This document shows positions 4,602-20,757 of a stretch of 34,561 nucleotides of DNA, piece by piece (the first letter of the stretch is position 1; the number at the start of each line of letters is the position of its first letter). Below the pieces are notes generated by a model. The model saw nothing but the letters and a program-made list of their open reading frames with translations, was not told where the DNA came from and searched no databases. Both the position numbers and the translations under genes were made by a program. Source of the DNA: Bacteroidaceae bacterium (GTDB lineage Bacteria > Bacteroidota > Bacteroidia > Bacteroidales > Bacteroidaceae); contig JAGCVH010000070.1 in the NCBI GenBank assembly GCA_017962495.1, positions 1-34,561 of the forward strand, in the 5' to 3' direction.

Positions 4602-5522
4602 TTATTGCGTTTTTTCCACCCCCCTACTCCGCCACATGCACCAAAGACCAAGGAGGACGAAGGGAACACTAAGGAGCTGACCCATGTTGAAGAGCATTCC
4701 ATTCTCAAAGTCGACTTGGTTTTCCTTTGTGTATTCGATAAATATGCGGGCAGTGAAAATAAGAAAGAGGCAAAGGCCAAAGAAGAAGCCTGTACCTACC
4801 TTCTGAGGCTGACGGCGATAGAACCACCAATGGATGAGGAAGAATATGGCATAGCATATAGCCTCGTACAATTGTCCGGGGTGCCTCGGGATTAGGTCCA
4901 CTCGCTCGAAGATGAAAGCCCAAGGCACATCGGATGGGCGTCCGATTATTTCCGAATTCATGAGGTTACCCATGCGGATAGCGCAAGCGCAGATGGGAGT
5001 AACAATGGCAATGTTGTCGAGCACCATCAACAACTTGAGACCGGTCTTGCGAACAAAGAGCCATAGAGCAATCATCAGGCCAAGCGTGCCTCCGTGGCTC
5101 GCCAATCCTTCATAGCCTGTATAGTGCCACGAACCCGTAGCGTCTTGCTTCATCGGGAGTACGATTTCCAGCGGATGGCTAAGGAAATAGTTGGGCTCGT
5201 AAAAGAGGCAGTGACCCAATCGTGCTCCGATGAGTATGCCAAAGAAGCAATAGAAGACCAGCGGGTCGAACTTCTCTTCAGGAATGCGTTGCTCGCGATA
5301 GAGTCGATGCTCGAGTAAATAGACCGAAAACAATCCTATTGCCCAGCACAACGAATACCAGCGTATGCCAAAAGAACCAATGTGGAACAGAAAGATGTCG
5401 GGGTTCCAGTTTATGAAGAGACTCACCCCAACGCTCCCTGCTGGGGAGGGAGTGGTTGCTTGTGCCAATAGCGTAATGCAGAAGACACATGATGCTATCA
5501 GTAAGAAAATCCTTTTATTCAT
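4602..5522 (-). CDS. lgt: Prolipoprotein diacylglyceryl transferase (start uncertain: 5522 or GTG at 5426)
   Basis: Lgt moves diacylglycerol from phosphatidylglycerol onto the lipobox cysteine of prolipoproteins in the inner membrane. The sequence shows the N-terminal family motif [25 protein letters not shown], the Lgt signature [20 protein letters not shown], and several hydrophobic helices. ATG at 5522 gives 306 residues. Its first 35 or so do not belong to the family: a signal-peptide-like stretch ([20 protein letters not shown]) followed by [13 protein letters not shown], which is the translation of a REP-like palindrome at 5420-5453. A GTG at 5426 gives 274 residues, the normal Lgt length, starting just before [15 protein letters not shown] favour the GTG start, but the longer frame is intact and could be used. 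It sits 52 bp downstream of ychF. Confidence 0.93.
5420..5453 (+). repeat. REP-like palindromic element, copy 1, inside the 5' end of the long lgt frame
   Basis: On the plus strand it begins GACTCACCCCAACGCTCCC, passes TGCTG, and ends GGGGAGGGAGT. CTCCC and GGGAG can pair around the TGCTG loop. It matches copy 2 (5541-5575) when that is read on the minus strand: same GAC start, same CTCCCT core, and the same GGGAGGGAGT end. The two copies are in opposite orientation about 88 bp apart. It is translated in the long lgt frame and contains the alternative GTG start. Confidence 0.8.
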
Positions 5523-14163: not shown

Positions 14164-15750
14164 TTATTTTTGAATTTGAATGTAATCAATATCTGGCATC
14201 CAACCTTCGGCGTTTGATAAACGGATGGTGTTATTGCCTTTTTTCAGCTTAATGGGAATTTCTACTGTTCCAACCTTATCCCATGAACCACTGTTTGCCG
14301 TTACGGTCTTGATTTTCTTACCATTAACGGTAACATTTATCTGGCGGTCTTCGCTGGTGAAATAGGCAATGGTGAGCATGCGCTTGCCTCCCTTTGGAAG
14401 GTAAACGTTGTTCCAAACAAGGTCGTTTTGCTCACTTTGTCCAAGCCAGCAAGCCTTATATCCGCTGGAGCAAACGTCATTTGCTACATAGATACCAGTC
14501 TTTTCCGACTGGTTGTTACGTATTTCCTGATAGTCACTGATGTATCCTGTCTCAGCTTCATAGCGTCGGCGTTCGAGGCGCTGTTCGGCTGTTGCCTTGT
14601 AGATGCGAGTGCCATGAGCAGGGACCGTAACCTGGAATCCTCCGATGAAACCGCCTATTTCTTTTTGCTCGAAGCAATCACGTAGGTTAACTTTACCCGC
14701 CAAATCCAGATCCTCGAAGTTTACTGTAATATATTTAGCTTCGTCGGTCGGATTGTATACAGCAAAGACACGGGTGAGCCCGTTAAGTTTTTCTACATCG
14801 CGTACCAATATATATGTATCGCTTATACGCCTTACGAGATATGCTTGCTGGAAGGTCTTATCCTGATTTATCCCGATTAAATCGGCATTTTTCATTAGGC
14901 TCAAAGCCTGCGGACGAATGTTTCGCATGTCGCATCCAATAAGCAAGGGAGAGTTCATAATACACCACATACCAAAGTGTGTCTTGTCCTCTTCGTCACT
15001 CATTCGACGGCCAACTTCCAACATATCCATATCATTGTAATGACCTGGTTTGCAATAGGCTGTCAGATATAGGTTCTCTGCAAGAATGCCTCTGACAGAT
15101 CTCCATGCATCAAAGATATCGCCGGTTGTGCGCCAAGAGTCGGCAACATCGGCACTCCAAGTGCCAGGATAAGCCCAACGGCACATGTTGTAAACAATTC
15201 CAGGTTTGCCGCAATTCTTAATTGCATTTGAGATTTTGGTATATTGCTCACGCTCATCCAGTCTCATGTGGTTACCGCCACAGTAATCGACCTTAATGAA
15301 GTCGAAGTCCCAGTCAATGAAATAAAGATGGCAGTCTTGTTCTTCATGTCCGGCCAATCCTACACCAATTCCCCATGCATGACGATTGCCTGAACCACAA
15401 GTGTTGTCACCAGCATCGCTATATATACCAGCTTTCAGGCCCAACTTATGAATGTAGTCAACCAAAGGACGCATCCCAGAGGGAAATAGTTTTGTATTCA
15501 GCCTCAAGTGTCCATCCTCGCCACGACCATCCCAATAACCATCATCAATGTTAATAAATTGATAACCTGCATCTTTCAGGCCTGTAATGACCATTGCATC
15601 GGCTTGTTCACGAATGAGGTCTTCGTTGATGTTCAATGCGAAAGTATTCCACGAACTCCAACCCATCGTAGGACCAAGCTGTGCAGTCGCTGTCATAGAC
15701 AGCCCAATGTAAAATGTAAAATGTAAAATGTAAAGCAGAAAGTGTTTCAT
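14164..15750 (-). CDS. Secreted GH27 alpha-galactosidase with C-terminal CBM35-like domain
   Basis: The 528-residue protein starts with a signal peptide ending near TATAQ (residue 24). The GH27 (alpha/beta)8 domain follows: GWSSWNTFALNI, INIDDGYWDGR, the nucleophile D155 in FIKVDYCGG, the acid/base D211 in WRTTGD, and PGHYNDMDMLEVG. It should release terminal alpha-galactose from oligo- or polysaccharides such as galactomannan side chains. Residues about 395-528 form a beta-sandwich like CBM35/CBM6 (YEAETGYIS... to WMPDIDYIQI). Four exact copies of a 7-bp unit lie in the signal-peptide codons (15706-15733), a possible phase-variation tract. It is 36 bp upstream of gdhA on the same strand. Confidence 0.93.
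   Translation of the reverse strand: MKHFLLYILHFTFYIGLSMTATAQLGPTMGWSSWNTFALNINEDLIREQADAMVITGLKDAGYQFINIDDGYWDGRGEDGHLRLNTKLFPSGMRPLVDYIHKLGLKAGIYSDAGDNTCGSGNRHAWGIGVGLAGHEEQDCHLYFIDWDFDFIKVDYCGGNHMRLDEREQYTKISNAIKNCGKPGIVYNMCRWAYPGTWSADVADSWRTTGDIFDAWRSVRGILAENLYLTAYCKPGHYNDMDMLEVGRRMSDEEDKTHFGMWCIMNSPLLIGCDMRNIRPQALSLMKNADLIGINQDKTFQQAYLVRRISDTYILVRDVEKLNGLTRVFAVYNPTDEAKYITVNFEDLDLAGKVNLRDCFEQKEIGGFIGGFQVTVPAHGTRIYKATAEQRLERRRYEAETGYISDYQEIRNNQSEKTGIYVANDVCSSGYKACWLGQSEQNDLVWNNVYLPKGGKRMLTIAYFTSEDRQINVTVNGKKIKTVTANSGSWDKVGTVEIPIKLKKGNNTIRLSNAEGWMPDIDYIQIQK
15706..15733 (-). repeat. Four exact tandem copies of a 7-bp unit in the GH27 signal-peptide codons
   Basis: On the plus strand the unit AATGTAA is repeated four times without error. 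On the coding strand it encodes the YILHFTFYI part of the signal peptide. Gain or loss of one unit shifts the reading frame. Confidence 0.85.
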
Positions 15751-15840: not shown

Positions 15841-16677
15841 TTATGATGAAAGGTTGGACTTATATAAATTTAAAAGTCTAATAGTACTTTTGTCTGGGAA
15901 AATAGTCATTCTTTTTTCCACCCAATTAATAAAATCAGATTCACTGGTGAATTGAATATTAAATATTTTTGTATTGCTCTTATTATAACGTTTTTCTATG
16001 TCAATTATTACATCGTCTTTGATGCCTTGTTCCAATTTTTTTAAAGTTTTATTACTTAATAAAATCATATTGGTATCGTCGAAATACTCTTTGTTGGCAT
16101 AGCCACCGAGATTTCCAATTATCTGATAGAAAGCCCCCATATTGACGCCTTCAATATCTGGTACATAAATTTCTTTTTGTGAGATAGGATTATCTTTGCC
16201 CTCTTTATCATATTTTAAAGGGGATGACACCCTGGAAACAAATGCTTTTCCGTTTATTGAAGGCGCGGTCCAATTATAGTAACTAATATCTATTTGTAAG
16301 TGTTTCTCAACAATCTCAGGGACTATATCTTTCTCTGTAAAATGTCCACGAAGATAATCATAAAGTTTATCCTCAGATATCATTTTGGCATGATAACCAT
16401 CGTGTTCGTTCAACGCGTAACGTTTCAATGAATCTTCATTAGGATTACTGCCAACAATAAAGAAACTGGTTGATTCTTTAACAGGTGGAATAGCATCGCC
16501 TTCTTTATAAATGCGTGTTTCTGAAACACGATCTATGGTATCAACTCCAATCGCCTTCAATTTTGCATATAGCTCTTTTTGAGGCATGCGAAATTCTCCC
16601 GTTAAGCAGATTCTTTTTCCTTTCAAGGGATTGGCTATGTCTATTTGACCAAAGATATCTAATTGTTGAGTATTCAT
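15841..16677 (-). CDS. Protein with N-terminal BRCT domain and a second BRCT-like region
   Basis: A 278-residue protein. Residues about 19-110 look like a BRCT domain (LKGKRICLTGEFRM..., then STSFFIVGSNPN, then MISEDKLYDYL). Residues about 168-256 have a similar layout (MGAFYQIIGNLGGYANKEYFDDTNMILLSNKTLKKLEQG..., ending FTSESDFINWVEK), suggesting a second, diverged BRCT. BRCT domains bind phosphoproteins or DNA ends. No catalytic motif is visible. It lies 13 bp after the exonuclease-BRCT gene and is probably the third gene of a polA operon. It is strikingly AT-rich: the line 16021-16080 is 25% GC. The second BRCT is a suggestion only. Confidence 0.75.
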   Translation of the reverse strand: MNTQQLDIFGQIDIANPLKGKRICLTGEFRMPQKELYAKLKAIGVDTIDRVSETRIYKEGDAIPPVKESTSFFIVGSNPNEDSLKRYALNEHDGYHAKMISEDKLYDYLRGHFTEKDIVPEIVEKHLQIDISYYNWTAPSINGKAFVSRVSSPLKYDKEGKDNPISQKEIYVPDIEGVNMGAFYQIIGNLGGYANKEYFDDTNMILLSNKTLKKLEQGIKDDVIIDIEKRYNKSNTKIFNIQFTSESDFINWVEKRMTIFPDKSTIRLLNLYKSNLSS

Positions 16678-16690
16678 ATTTGTTATTATA

Positions 16691-17635
16691 TTAAATTCTA
16701 TTTATAAATTCTGTCTCGCTAAGTATCTCTATAGTATGTCCTTTTTCCAGCATACTTAATGCTTTTTTTTGTTTACTGCTCATACCATCAGCACCAACAA
16801 CCCTATAATCTTGCTGGCCAACAACTAAAACATCCGTTTCTTTAGTAACTGAATCCATAGGTATTCCTCCTATGTTTTTAACCATCTGAAGCATCTCTTT
16901 TCTGGTGGCAAATTTAGTTGTTCCTGTAAAACAGACAGATTTACCATAGAAATAATTACCCTCATCATTTAATTCTGGATAATTCTCTAAATTATTTATA
17001 AAAGATTTGTAATCGCATTGCCTCCATTGGTTGCCATAATATCTCTTGTTTTGTAGATGAGCATTGAATGTGTTTTTGGAAAAACTACCTCTATGGAAAT
17101 TATATTTTTTTTCTAATTCATCAAGCTCGCTTCCATCTATTTCAAGGCACTTTAACAGTATTAATGCACATCCTAAAGAATCACTATCTGCTTTATGATG
17201 AACACCAAATTCAATACCTAAATAATTAGCAACAACGTCTAGTGAATAACTATAACATCCTTTTACAATACATCTTGCAATACGTAAAGAACAAAAGTAA
17301 TCGAATGTGGGATACTCAATTCTATACTTATTAAAGGCATCCCTTAATGCATACATATCAAATGATGTATTATGTGCAACGACAATCTTGTTCTGTAGAT
17401 ATGGTTGGACCTCTTTCCAAACATCCGGAAATGAAGGGCTGTTCTTGGTATCTTCTGGTGTAATACCATGAATCCATATATTCATAGGGGCATATCGGTT
17501 GTTTTCTGGTTGAACTAACCAGCATTTTGGCTTTTGGGGTTTGCCATCAATGACCTCAGTAATACCAATCTGACATATACTACTTCTGTCAGATGTAGCC
17601 GTTTCGAGATCTATTGCTACGAAGTTCTGCTTCAT
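16691..17635 (-). CDS. DnaQ-like 3'-5' exonuclease with C-terminal BRCT domain
   Basis: Residues 1-170 are a DEDDh exonuclease: D9 and E11 in AIDLETA, D93 in NTSFDMYALRDAF, and H147 with D152 in HHKADSD. Residues about 229-314 are a BRCT domain (YGKSVCFTGTTKFATRKEMLQ, then TKETDVLVVGQQD, ending LSETEFINRI). The family removes nucleotides from 3' ends; stand-alone members act in repair, proofreading or RNA turnover. The BRCT suggests recruitment to DNA or a partner. The gene starts 11 bp after the polA stop and is followed by another BRCT protein. Its base composition is very AT-rich. PolA in this window already has intact proofreading residues, so the job here is probably not simple replacement proofreading. 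Confidence 0.85.
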   Translation of the reverse strand: MKQNFVAIDLETATSDRSSICQIGITEVIDGKPQKPKCWLVQPENNRYAPMNIWIHGITPEDTKNSPSFPDVWKEVQPYLQNKIVVAHNTSFDMYALRDAFNKYRIEYPTFDYFCSLRIARCIVKGCYSYSLDVVANYLGIEFGVHHKADSDSLGCALILLKCLEIDGSELDELEKKYNFHRGSFSKNTFNAHLQNKRYYGNQWRQCDYKSFINNLENYPELNDEGNYFYGKSVCFTGTTKFATRKEMLQMVKNIGGIPMDSVTKETDVLVVGQQDYRVVGADGMSSKQKKALSMLEKGHTIEILSETEFINRI

Positions 17636-17646
17636 TTAATATTGTT

Positions 17647-20600
17647 TTAATGAGCCTCCAACCAATTATTACCAAATCCACAATCTGCAATAAGAGGAAC
17701 TTTCATCTCTATTGCATTTTGCATTTCTTTTATCACAATTTCCTCAACCCGCTTTTTTTCTTCAGGATATACAGAGAAATTCAATTCATCATGTACCTGT
17801 AGAATCATTTTTGAACGTATATTTTCGGTTTTAAAGCGTTGAGAAATACGTATCATAGCTAATTTTATGATATCAGCTGCGGTTCCCTGAATAGGAGCGT
17901 TTATCGCGTTGCGTTCAGCAAAACCTCTTACTGTTGCATTGTGTGAATTAATGTCTTTGAGATATCTACGACGACCAAAAAGAGTTTCTACATATTCTTT
18001 TTGTCTTGCCTCTTCAATTGCTTTATCCATGTAGTCTTTAACTTTTGGGAATGTCTCGAAAAAGCCATTAATTAATTGTTTAGATTCGTCACGAGAAATA
18101 TCAAGTCTTTCTGCTAATCCAAATACCGTTATCCCATATATGATTCCAAAATTAGCCCGTTTTGATTTAGTACGCTCATCGCGTGTTACTTCATCGATAT
18201 TTTTTTTATATATGGTTGCGGCTGTTGCAGCATGTAGATCTTTACCATCTTTAAAGACATTTATCATGTTTTCATCTCCTGACAAGTGAGCCATGACTCT
18301 TAATTCAATTTGGCTGTAGTCGGCAGAGAAGAACAGACAACCGGGTTCAGGGACGAAGGCTTTTCTTATTTCTTTACCATCTTCACCTCGAACAGGAATG
18401 TTTTGTAAGTTCGGATTGCTCGATGATAAGCGGCCAGTGGCAGTAATAGTTTGGTTAAAGGAAGTATGAACGTGACCAGTTCTTTTATTAATAAGGCCAG
18501 GCAATGCATCTACATAAGTGCCAAGTAATTTTTTCATCTCCCTATGAGCTAAGATGATTTCAACAATCCTATGCTTGCCTTTTAGCTGTTGTAATATTTC
18601 TTCATTTGTAACAAACTGCCATGATTCAGATTTCTTTGGATTGTCAACAATTTTTAGTTTATCGAATAGAATCTCTCCAACTTTTTTAGGTGAAGATATG
18701 TTGAAATTCTCTCCTGCCAACGAATATATTTCTTGTTCCAGTTGTTTAAACTGCTTTGTCATGATAGTGTATGAGTCTTCCACTATAAACTCTTCTTCAG
18801 GAAACAAAGACAAACCGAGATTATTTGTCTCTTTTTGCTTTGTTTTTGGTTTATTTGCTTTGGGTAACTTGGCAAGTTCGTTCTTTAATTTTCTGTATTC
18901 TAATATTTTCCCAACAATTACATTTTTATCTACAAGTTCTTTTAATTCATATTCGCTTGTTACATATTGCCATGTTTTTGTTTTTTTAGGATTATCTATA
19001 ATTTTGAGCTTTCCAAACAAAACATCTCCAACTTGTTTTGGCGATGAAATATTGAATTCTTCTCCTGCTAATTTATAGATTTCATCCTCCATCTCTTTCA
19101 TGCGAAGAGTAAGGACCTTAGATGTTTCTTTTAAAGCCTCAGTATCAATACAAACACCATTTATTTCCATTTCTGCTAATACTGGCATAAGAGGCATTTC
19201 TATATTATTAAATAAATCTTCACATCTGTACTTCTTCAACTCCGGTTCAAGTATGTTTTTCAGACGAAGAGTAATATCAGCATCTTCTGCTGCGTAATCA
19301 CATACTAGCTTTTTATCTACATCTCTCATTGATCTTTGGTTTTTTCCTTTAGGCCCAATGAGTTCTTCTATGTGAATAGTTTGATAGTTGAGATATATTT
19401 CTGCTAAATAGTCCATTCCATGATGTAACTCTGGTTGAATTAAGTAATGTGCAATCATGGTATCCCACATAGGACCATTTAGGTGAATATCATAATTTCT
19501 GAGTACCTCAAGATCAAACTTTAAATTTTGTCCAATCTTTAAAATGTTCTCATCCTCATAGATGGCTTTAAATTTATTAACAATTATTGTAGCTTTTTCT
19601 TGATTTTCAGGAATCGGGACATAAAAAGCTTCAAACTCCTTCACAGAAAAGCTTAAGCCCACCAATTCTGCATTAAAACTATCTTTGTTTGTTGTTTCTG
19701 TATCTAAACAAAGAAATGTTTTTGTCTTAAGGTAACTGCATAAAGACGAAATATCTTCCTCACTTTCAATGAGTTTGTATTTGTGAGGAGTTGTTTTAAT
19801 ATTATTCAAACTTGCAGTCTTTAATTCTTCTGAAACGAAAGGTTGGTTCTCATTGTGGATGGATGGTTCATTAACGTCCTTATGTGTTTTCGTTTTCTTA
19901 AGAACACGCTCTGCGAACGATTTCATCTCCAATTCCAGCAGCAATTTACCTAGTTCCTCTTCATTGGGTTCCGCGAGTTTCAGTGCTTGCAGGTCGAGTT
20001 CAATGGGAACATCTGTTTTAATAGTGGCGAGGAAATATGACATCTTAATATCCTCAGCATGCTCCTCTATTTTCTCTCGAAGTTTGCCCTTGATTTCAGA
20101 TGAACGTGCAAACAATTGTTCAATGGTTCCATACTCGTTGATGAGTTTTACAGCAGTCTTCTCCCCTACCCCTGGACAACCAGGGAAATTATCTGCCGAG
20201 TCACCCATCAGAGCCAACAGGTCTATGACTGTTTGAGTCGAGGGTATACCGTATTTCTCGCAAACCTCATGTGGACCCATCGTTTCATACCCCCCACCAT
20301 GACGAGGGCGATAAATATAGACGTTGTCGCTTACCAGTTGACCGTAGTCCTTGTCGGGAGTTAGCATATAGGTTTCTATTCCCAACTTTCCTGCCTTATC
20401 TGCTAATGTTCCTATCACGTCATCTGCCTCATAACCATCCACTTGTAGGATGGGAATGCGATAGGCTTGAAGCAAGTCCTTGATTATAGGCACAGCCTTA
20501 CGAATATCCTCTGGAGTTGCCTCACGCTGGGCCTTATAGTTAGGAAATGCCTCGCTTCGGAAGGTTGGTCCGCTTGGATCGAAGGCGACACCTATGTGGG

Positions 20601-20757
20601 TAGGTTGTTCTTTGGTTAGTACCTCATTGAGGGTATTCAAAAAACCCATAATTGCCGATGTGTTCAAGCCCTTGGAGTTTATCCTCGGGTTCTTAATGAA
20701 TGCGTAGTATGCGCGATATATGAGTGCGTAGGCGTCGAGCAGGAATAGTTTTTCCAT
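17647..20757 (-). CDS. polA: DNA polymerase I with internal thumb-region duplication
   Basis: The protein has 1,036 residues, about 100 more than I expect for a Bacteroidales PolA. Residues 1-285 are the 5'-nuclease (LFLLDAYALIYRAYYAF, GYEADDVIGT, ALMGDSADNFPG). Residues about 325-510 are the 3'-5' exonuclease with D352, E354, D415 and YAAEDAD (488-494) intact, so proofreading is likely. The polymerase core has SADYSQIELR (811-820), the O-helix RANFGIIYG (867-875) and QVHDE (987-991). Residues 555-628 and 672-745 are tandem copies (about 43 of 74 positions identical, sharing FNISSPK-VG). The first 870 or so coding bases are about 48% GC in sampled lines; the next part is 23-35%, suggesting a mosaic gene. 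The exonuclease-BRCT gene follows at 11 bp. Confidence 0.95.
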   Translation of the reverse strand: MEKLFLLDAYALIYRAYYAFIKNPRINSKGLNTSAIMGFLNTLNEVLTKEQPTHIGVAFDPSGPTFRSEAFPNYKAQREATPEDIRKAVPIIKDLLQAYRIPILQVDGYEADDVIGTLADKAGKLGIETYMLTPDKDYGQLVSDNVYIYRPRHGGGYETMGPHEVCEKYGIPSTQTVIDLLALMGDSADNFPGCPGVGEKTAVKLINEYGTIEQLFARSSEIKGKLREKIEEHAEDIKMSYFLATIKTDVPIELDLQALKLAEPNEEELGKLLLELEMKSFAERVLKKTKTHKDVNEPSIHNENQPFVSEELKTASLNNIKTTPHKYKLIESEEDISSLCSYLKTKTFLCLDTETTNKDSFNAELVGLSFSVKEFEAFYVPIPENQEKATIIVNKFKAIYEDENILKIGQNLKFDLEVLRNYDIHLNGPMWDTMIAHYLIQPELHHGMDYLAEIYLNYQTIHIEELIGPKGKNQRSMRDVDKKLVCDYAAEDADITLRLKNILEPELKKYRCEDLFNNIEMPLMPVLAEMEINGVCIDTEALKETSKVLTLRMKEMEDEIYKLAGEEFNISSPKQVGDVLFGKLKIIDNPKKTKTWQYVTSEYELKELVDKNVIVGKILEYRKLKNELAKLPKANKPKTKQKETNNLGLSLFPEEEFIVEDSYTIMTKQFKQLEQEIYSLAGENFNISSPKKVGEILFDKLKIVDNPKKSESWQFVTNEEILQQLKGKHRIVEIILAHREMKKLLGTYVDALPGLINKRTGHVHTSFNQTITATGRLSSSNPNLQNIPVRGEDGKEIRKAFVPEPGCLFFSADYSQIELRVMAHLSGDENMINVFKDGKDLHAATAATIYKKNIDEVTRDERTKSKRANFGIIYGITVFGLAERLDISRDESKQLINGFFETFPKVKDYMDKAIEEARQKEYVETLFGRRRYLKDINSHNATVRGFAERNAINAPIQGTAADIIKLAMIRISQRFKTENIRSKMILQVHDELNFSVYPEEKKRVEEIVIKEMQNAIEMKVPLIADCGFGNNWLEAH

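Follow-up and report, generated by a model that had tools for sequence, protein, structure and literature searches.

A DNA polymerase I gene with two thumb modules on a putative mobile gene-end cassette in a Bacteroidaceae bacterium

The window analyzed here is a 34,561-nucleotide stretch of a Bacteroidaceae genome. It encodes on the reverse strand a DNA polymerase I gene (polA, 17647..20757, 1036 amino acids), behind which lie two genes of the same orientation: exoBRCT (16691..17635, 314 amino acids), a DEDDh exonuclease with a C-terminal BRCT domain, and BRCT2 (15841..16677, 278 amino acids), with an N-terminal clamp-like motif (QLDIF) and an unknown C-terminal domain. The genome is 85% complete and the PolA of the window is its sole PolA match. 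This protein scores 1177.7 bits against PRK05755 (NF004397, cut-off 720) and 1032.2 bits against TIGR00593 (cut-off 600), and the 5' nuclease, 3'-5' exonuclease and polymerase domains are all found by Pfam. In agreement with the preliminary description of this DNA, the reading frame is open and the polymerase and exonuclease motif strings, whose residues we take to be catalytic, are present. No Rfam family matches the window at the gathering score.

One thumb is usual for PolA, a rule that lies outside the model definitions, and the PolA of the window breaks it with two modules. The first copy, T1, covers amino acids 541-628 (18874..19137, reverse strand) and the second, T2, amino acids 658-745 (18523..18786, reverse strand). 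They are separated by a linker of 29 amino acids (629-657; 18787..18873, reverse strand) that is coil with low pLDDT in a low-confidence model. The region 18523-19110 on the reverse strand, which corresponds to amino acids 550-745 of the 1036-amino acid ORF, had been described as a tandem duplication within the thumb, and our analysis confirms this. In a self-comparison of PolA, the best diagonal lies at an offset of 117 amino acids with 43 of 74 identities (16 of 74 at the next best offset), and the local BLOSUM62 score is 240, against a maximum of 59 among 1000 shuffles. The count of 43 in 74 thus stands as first given, but the limits of the segments do not: the homologous unit is larger, each copy (87-88 amino acids) being equivalent to the entire single thumb of relatives, and the linker has about 29 residues instead of 44. 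At the DNA level the two 74-codon copies are 65% identical and share the third position in 31 of 74 codons; this degree of divergence argues against a fresh assembler stutter.

The double thumb is rare. Among 173 PolA ORFs, distinct by their last 200 amino acids, 170 have one thumb, as had been expected of a normal PolA, and three have two: the window, L061 from a yak-rumen Prevotella and L067 from Prevotella RUG126 (located in genome G156). In L061 and L067 the linker between the thumbs has 28 amino acids. Both were recognized as double in a whole-protein scan of the genome collection, in which 80 of 226 loci were kept. Rarity was also assessed with the thumb-linker-thumb stretch, searched as protein, and double-thumb genes alone matched it over its full length. 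In the genus of the window, 131 of 139 genomes match this query, and the full span is found only in the window's own genome. In three genomes (G013, G071, and G152) the match begins at query residue 59-63 and stops at 239; G013 and G071 (L054 and L058) are single-thumb by module count, and G152 lies outside the count of 173 ORFs. In overlapping sets of genomes drawn from the genus, family and order levels, 330 of 398 genomes of the genus of G155 match at 1e-25 (among the matches listed only G155 spans), 47 of 399 of its family match at 1e-40 (spanning only in G155), and 2 of 295 of the order match at 1e-40 (spanning only in G000). The match in G156, the carrier of L067, spans too. Other long PolA ORFs, among them a set of 8, all count as single-thumb, and no PolA row was found in the stretch from G386 (L180). 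In phage and plasmid records, no double thumb was seen among the 12 listed matches of 59 in one search and of 75 in another; in those listed, the query was covered by two pieces within 342-507 bp of one gene. Viral contigs searched with the PolA of the window gave no match. Among the top-ranked results of the open literature, with subscription papers outside this search, we recognized no duplicated Pol I thumb or polA-borne cassette. Two genomes of the genus, G060 (C83 and C54) and G070 (C65 and C131), have two PolA matches each, owing either to contamination or to the presence of a second polA.

A tree built from 59 thumb modules (88 columns, with many unresolved forks) places the three T1 copies in one clade (support 100/93) and the three T2 copies in another (99/92), and all six group together (97/87). 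Given that the T1 and T2 copies are sister clades, the two-thumb DNA polymerase I evidently originated once, by an internal duplication ancestral to all three genes. Such a phylogeny had been suggested as a way of dating the event, and it places a single duplication before the three genes; the duplication is thus old and common to three species, not confined to the PolA of this genome. A tryptophan is found in both copies where 51 single thumbs have glycine (43), lysine (7) or glutamine (1), which fits one ancestor. Among the three double-thumb genes, the only ones known and not independent of one another, dN is 0.16-0.25 for T1 and 0.08-0.29 for T2 (dS is saturated or not computable, hence no dN/dS is given). 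With dN this low in both, neither thumb copy appears free of constraint.

The three genes are mosaics. The 5' part of the polA of the window, which encodes the 5' nuclease domain (19918..20757, reverse strand), is native, and these first 840 nucleotides are nearest to the single-thumb locus L108 (81.7% identity). The same part of L061 is closest to the single-thumb locus L139 (89.9%) and that of L067 to L093 (94.6%). The polymerase ends of the three genes are mutual best non-self matches at 79-80% identity. The drop in identity to the native sister comes at about nucleotide 840 of polA for the window, 1380 for L061 and 1320 for L067. A quick tree of the 5' end (amino acids 1-265, 40 rows) scatters the three genes and their placement in one clade is rejected (p-AU 3.66e-07); the tree of the 3' end (255 amino acids of the polymerase domain) joins them with a support of 98. 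GC content falls to about 30-40% inside polA and is back at the host level after two further genes in the window and in L061; in L067, one more AT-rich gene follows the pair and the contig ends soon after. The GC step, defined as the last 1200 nucleotides of polA minus the first 800, is -0.107 in the window, -0.205 in L061 and -0.115 in L067, compared with 0.002 in 78 single-thumb loci (s.d. 0.016, minimum -0.041), a set in which contig ends truncate some of the loci. The polA frame of L067 is broken at about position 5215 in the native part, where it is 47 nucleotides short relative to its sister, either truly or through an assembly fault.

In the window, the AT-rich foreign cassette comprises polA from about amino acid 280 to its end plus the two downstream genes (15841..19917, reverse strand), with its right border between about 15685 and 15840. 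A short tandem repeat lies at 15690-15740, in the leader-coding start of an alpha-galactosidase-like gene behind the cassette. Downstream of the cassette the DNA is native again, resembling L108 in the window, L139 in L061 and, in the last 127 bp of the contig, L093 in L067. A genome of the same genus as the window (G132) shares the window from 7.4 to 29 kb at 66-82% identity and has just about 94 bp at the place of the two downstream genes; these shared flanks assign the contig to this genus. Since the genus set of the window (139 genomes) excludes G155 and G156, the cassette is found across genus boundaries, as these are defined in the genome collection. By its sequence, the polymerase half of the polA of the window is foreign to its own 5' end. 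Since three native 5' lineages share one AT-rich 3' block, the cassette has evidently recombined into different native polA genes, in three lineages and at least two genera as drawn by the collection, and we consider a horizontally exchanged double-thumb polA cassette strongly supported. The plain reading would be three separate entries; fewer entries, with 5' ends exchanged afterwards, could also have occurred. A plain gene-internal event, as initially described, is not the whole story, given that the polymerase half travels with two downstream genes.

The borders hold traces of how the cassette may have entered. Past the cassette, L061 retains a polA 3' end in broken form, one 175-bp piece of which has 85.7% identity to the end of polA in its sister L139. 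Among 185 sequences that match the polA C-terminus, two matching places are seen in L061 and in its second copy (L176), but in no other. In L067, native DNA restarts at the polA stop (94% identity to L093). In the window, DNA similar to L108 restarts about 155 nucleotides past BRCT2, and no native polA remnant was detected beyond the cassette. The simplest reading would be that an incoming polA 3' part, together with its genes, recombined with the resident polA and that the native end was left to decay. We detected neither an integrase nor a transposase, and no donor element.

In a translated search of 189 loci, the two partner genes occur in the three double-thumb loci and in no other; flank lengths vary in this set (66 of the 78 single-thumb loci have at least 1.7 kb beyond polA). 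exoBRCT scores 256.2 bits against NF004844 (PRK06195, DNA polymerase III epsilon subunit), below the curated cut-off of 373, and the BRCT domain match of BRCT2 is weak (20.8 bits, cut-off 21.3). Elsewhere in the genomes the pair occurs without polA, and thus does not need this polymerase: one genome encodes both genes (G018, L205/L234, 6490-8404), together with a reverse transcriptase (L205, 10038-11375; 29.2 bits, under the Pfam cut-off of 29.6), and three others (G138, G060, and G091) have diverged pairs at 24-44% identity. A further genome has the exonuclease without BRCT2 (G015, L231, 5668-6717); its surroundings and those of the G018 pair are presumably prophage-like. Relatives of BRCT2, mostly distant, are found in 60 of 139 genomes of the window's genus at E 0.001 and in 7 of 398 genomes of the genus of G155 at 1e-30; the phage, plasmid and viral collections yielded no BRCT2 relative. 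In six genomes (L194-L199 in G064, G098, G057, G124, G127, and G067), short ORFs consist of the unknown C-terminal domain of BRCT2 alone (58-64% identity) and have a QLDLF motif close to their start.

In L067 the pair is followed by a third gene, which encodes RhuM (PF13310, 8879-9892). RhuM is also found behind single-thumb polA genes in G119 (L233, 2687-3700) and, as a partial match at the end of the locus, in G055 (L035, 2649-2867). Its presence behind polA in several genomes indicates that the spot after polA takes up accessory genes. exoBRCT matches the phage-defence-candidate family PDC-S48 (5.5e-30) and the RhuM of L067 matches the PADLOC candidate PDC-S05 (6.3e-141), PDC families being defence candidates only. 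The best defence match of BRCT2 is no better than E=0.018, and the polA of the window scores 127 bits against RTasPolA, a match that covers the polymerase domain generally.

The PolA proteins of this group usually have what is likely a sliding-clamp motif in the linker that joins the 5' nuclease domain to the 3'-5' exonuclease domain. The strict clamp pattern is found there in 86 of 108 ORFs, and QxxLF or QxxxLF in 102 of 108 (loci L002-L140), compared with 16 of 108 after shuffling; these counts omit 31 of 139 ORFs (25 with no usable anchor, 4 duplicates and 2 of the window's own). The clamp motif is absent from this linker in the PolA of the window. A clamp-like motif is found between the thumbs: GLSLF in the window (amino acids 648-652; 18802..18816, reverse strand), which lacks the usual first Q, QTLDLF in L061 and QMPDLF in L067, the latter two with a six-residue spacing instead of QxxLF, so that none is an exact pentapeptide with Q. 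The core [LP][DS]LF is kept in all three inter-thumb linkers, which are otherwise too different to align. The consensus of the clamp motif and the weight of its positions 1, 4, and 5 are given in PMC12309361. Because position 1 is missing in the window and the spacing is six residues in the other two genes, tethering to the clamp through the inter-thumb linker would be the weakest step of our proposal. BRCT2 of the window begins with MNTQQLDIF, which contains a motif of the QxxLF type, and Q-x-x-[LIM]-F lies near the start in 16 of 18 ORFs of the family, a count that takes in the L197 ORF (the exceptions are L191 and L232).

The two thumbs are conserved crosswise. At 35 positions conserved in at least 90% of 51 single thumbs, the front of T1 keeps 24, 22, and 22 of 24 residues (window, L061, and L067, respectively) and its part towards helix I keeps 8, 8, and 7 of 11. 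The front of T2 keeps 17, 20, and 19 of 24, and its part towards helix I all 11 in each gene. The mean difference from 43 single thumbs follows the same cross pattern in the three genes, and K54E is found in all three T2 copies. The E. coli Klenow fragment aligns with the front of T1 and the back of T2, although a single-copy protein may split in this way against a tandem anyway; the best alignment of Taq structures is with the whole of T2 and not with a combination of the two copies. An AlphaFold2 model (pLDDT 68.7, pTM 0.43) has the same helix order in both copies and a disordered linker. A structure prediction had been suggested for deciding whether both copies fold as thumbs; the helix order agrees with this, at low confidence, and the thumbs, judged from three double-thumb rows only, remain unplaced, their relative position being outside the model's reach. 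An alignment in which single thumbs are split between T1 and T2 would bias such a model. The crosswise conservation suggests a composite DNA-gripping thumb, made from the front of T1 and the back of T2.

We propose that the working thumb on DNA would be formed by the front of T1 (helix H, H1/H2, and the tip) together with the back of T2, where helix I runs into the palm. The remainder, consisting of the back half of T1, the front half of T2 and the linker that joins them, would be an extra arm at the tip of this thumb. The clamp-like motif in this arm would replace the QL[SD]LF that ordinary relatives hold between their two exonuclease domains, and the thumb would thus hold the polymerase to the clamp. 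BRCT2, with its clamp motif, and exoBRCT may then join the polymerase there to form a dedicated module for gap filling or repair, and such a clamp-tethered repair module is a testable proposal. We regard this whole picture, in which a double-thumb polA cassette comes with a composite thumb, a clamp tether and a repair module, as somewhat probable. More tentatively, the cassette may act by gene-end replacement, making the Pol I of its host two-thumbed and clamp-tethered, spreading between genera inside polA while the native end decays, and bringing its dedicated partners along, an exonuclease-BRCT and a BRCT protein that would bind the clamp.

The main rival is rather unlikely in our judgement: the cassette could be an accessory island, perhaps directed against phages, for which polA is the point of entry, the polA piece serving mainly as a homology arm or gene-end replacement that leaves the host unharmed, with the second thumb merely tolerated. 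The defence-candidate matches of the exonuclease and of RhuM, the RhuM genes behind single-thumb polA and the exonuclease/BRCT2 pairs away from polA all fit such an island. A merely tolerated thumb is, however, difficult to reconcile with two copies that are both constrained and crosswise conserved, or with a clamp-motif core kept in every inter-thumb linker, and the defence link is itself limited by the candidate status of the PDC families and the poor match of BRCT2. Simpler mechanically, and to us improbable, is that T2, being joined to the palm, is the sole working thumb and T1 a separate extra DNA-binding arm located between the exonuclease and this thumb. The intact helix-I residues and palm junction of T2 and the Taq alignments would be explained in this way, but the better kept front of T1, the K54E change in every T2 and the Klenow alignment, with the reservation given above, tell against it.

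Least probable by far is that the tandem duplication took place locally and in this genome alone, or that it is an artefact of assembly. The copies are adjacent and in frame, and the 138 other genomes of the genus have no full-span match; two further assemblies nevertheless have the same architecture, the copies have diverged in DNA sequence, and both the order of the thumb tree and the mosaic trees contradict it. We thus reject a private duplication, on the shared architecture of L061 and L067 and their mosaic 5' and 3' trees, and rule out a fresh tandem stutter or assembly error, on the divergence of the copies and the agreement of three assemblies, unless all of these share one and the same error. 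An artefact had been named at the outset as one way in which the duplication could fail; another was that the first segment might align to a normal, non-thumb region of single-copy homologues, and this is not what we find.

Vertical inheritance and a fixed domain order are expected of DNA polymerase I, as a core enzyme of repair. Our results suggest that in three rumen-type bacteria this core DNA-copying enzyme has apparently been rebuilt by gene exchange, and that accessory modules may be exchanged through the 3' end of such a core replication gene. As first suggested, the second thumb may alter processivity or the handling of lesions. A natural duplicate of the thumb, kept in three lineages and transferred horizontally along with two partner genes, offers a natural test of the part of the thumb in processivity and of the ways in which a Pol I may be linked to the sliding clamp.

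The PolA of the window resembles bacterial DNA polymerase I (family A) in its three domains, its catalytic motifs and the order of its subdomains, and differs in its two thumbs and linker, its foreign polymerase half and the missing clamp motif of the usual linker. Extra thumb material is known from other family A polymerases. In T7 DNA polymerase the thioredoxin-binding insertion lies between thumb helices H and H1, whereas the added unit in the PolA of the window is a second copy of the thumb, then the linker. The thumb insertions of T7 DNA polymerase (thioredoxin-binding) and of plant organellar Pol I have a role in processivity or lesion bypass, according to PMC7699545, and the likeness is that of additional thumb material in a family A polymerase; the extra part here is a second thumb within a bacterial PolA whose sequence gives no sign of such insertions. 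The PolA-SSB primases of mobile elements, as described in PMC10061031, are similar in that a mobile family A polymerase travels with partner genes, and a contact between thumb tip and partner has been predicted there once. Those enzymes are separate truncated polymerases, whereas here it is the host's own polA that is altered, and neither exoBRCT nor BRCT2 is SSB-like by Pfam.
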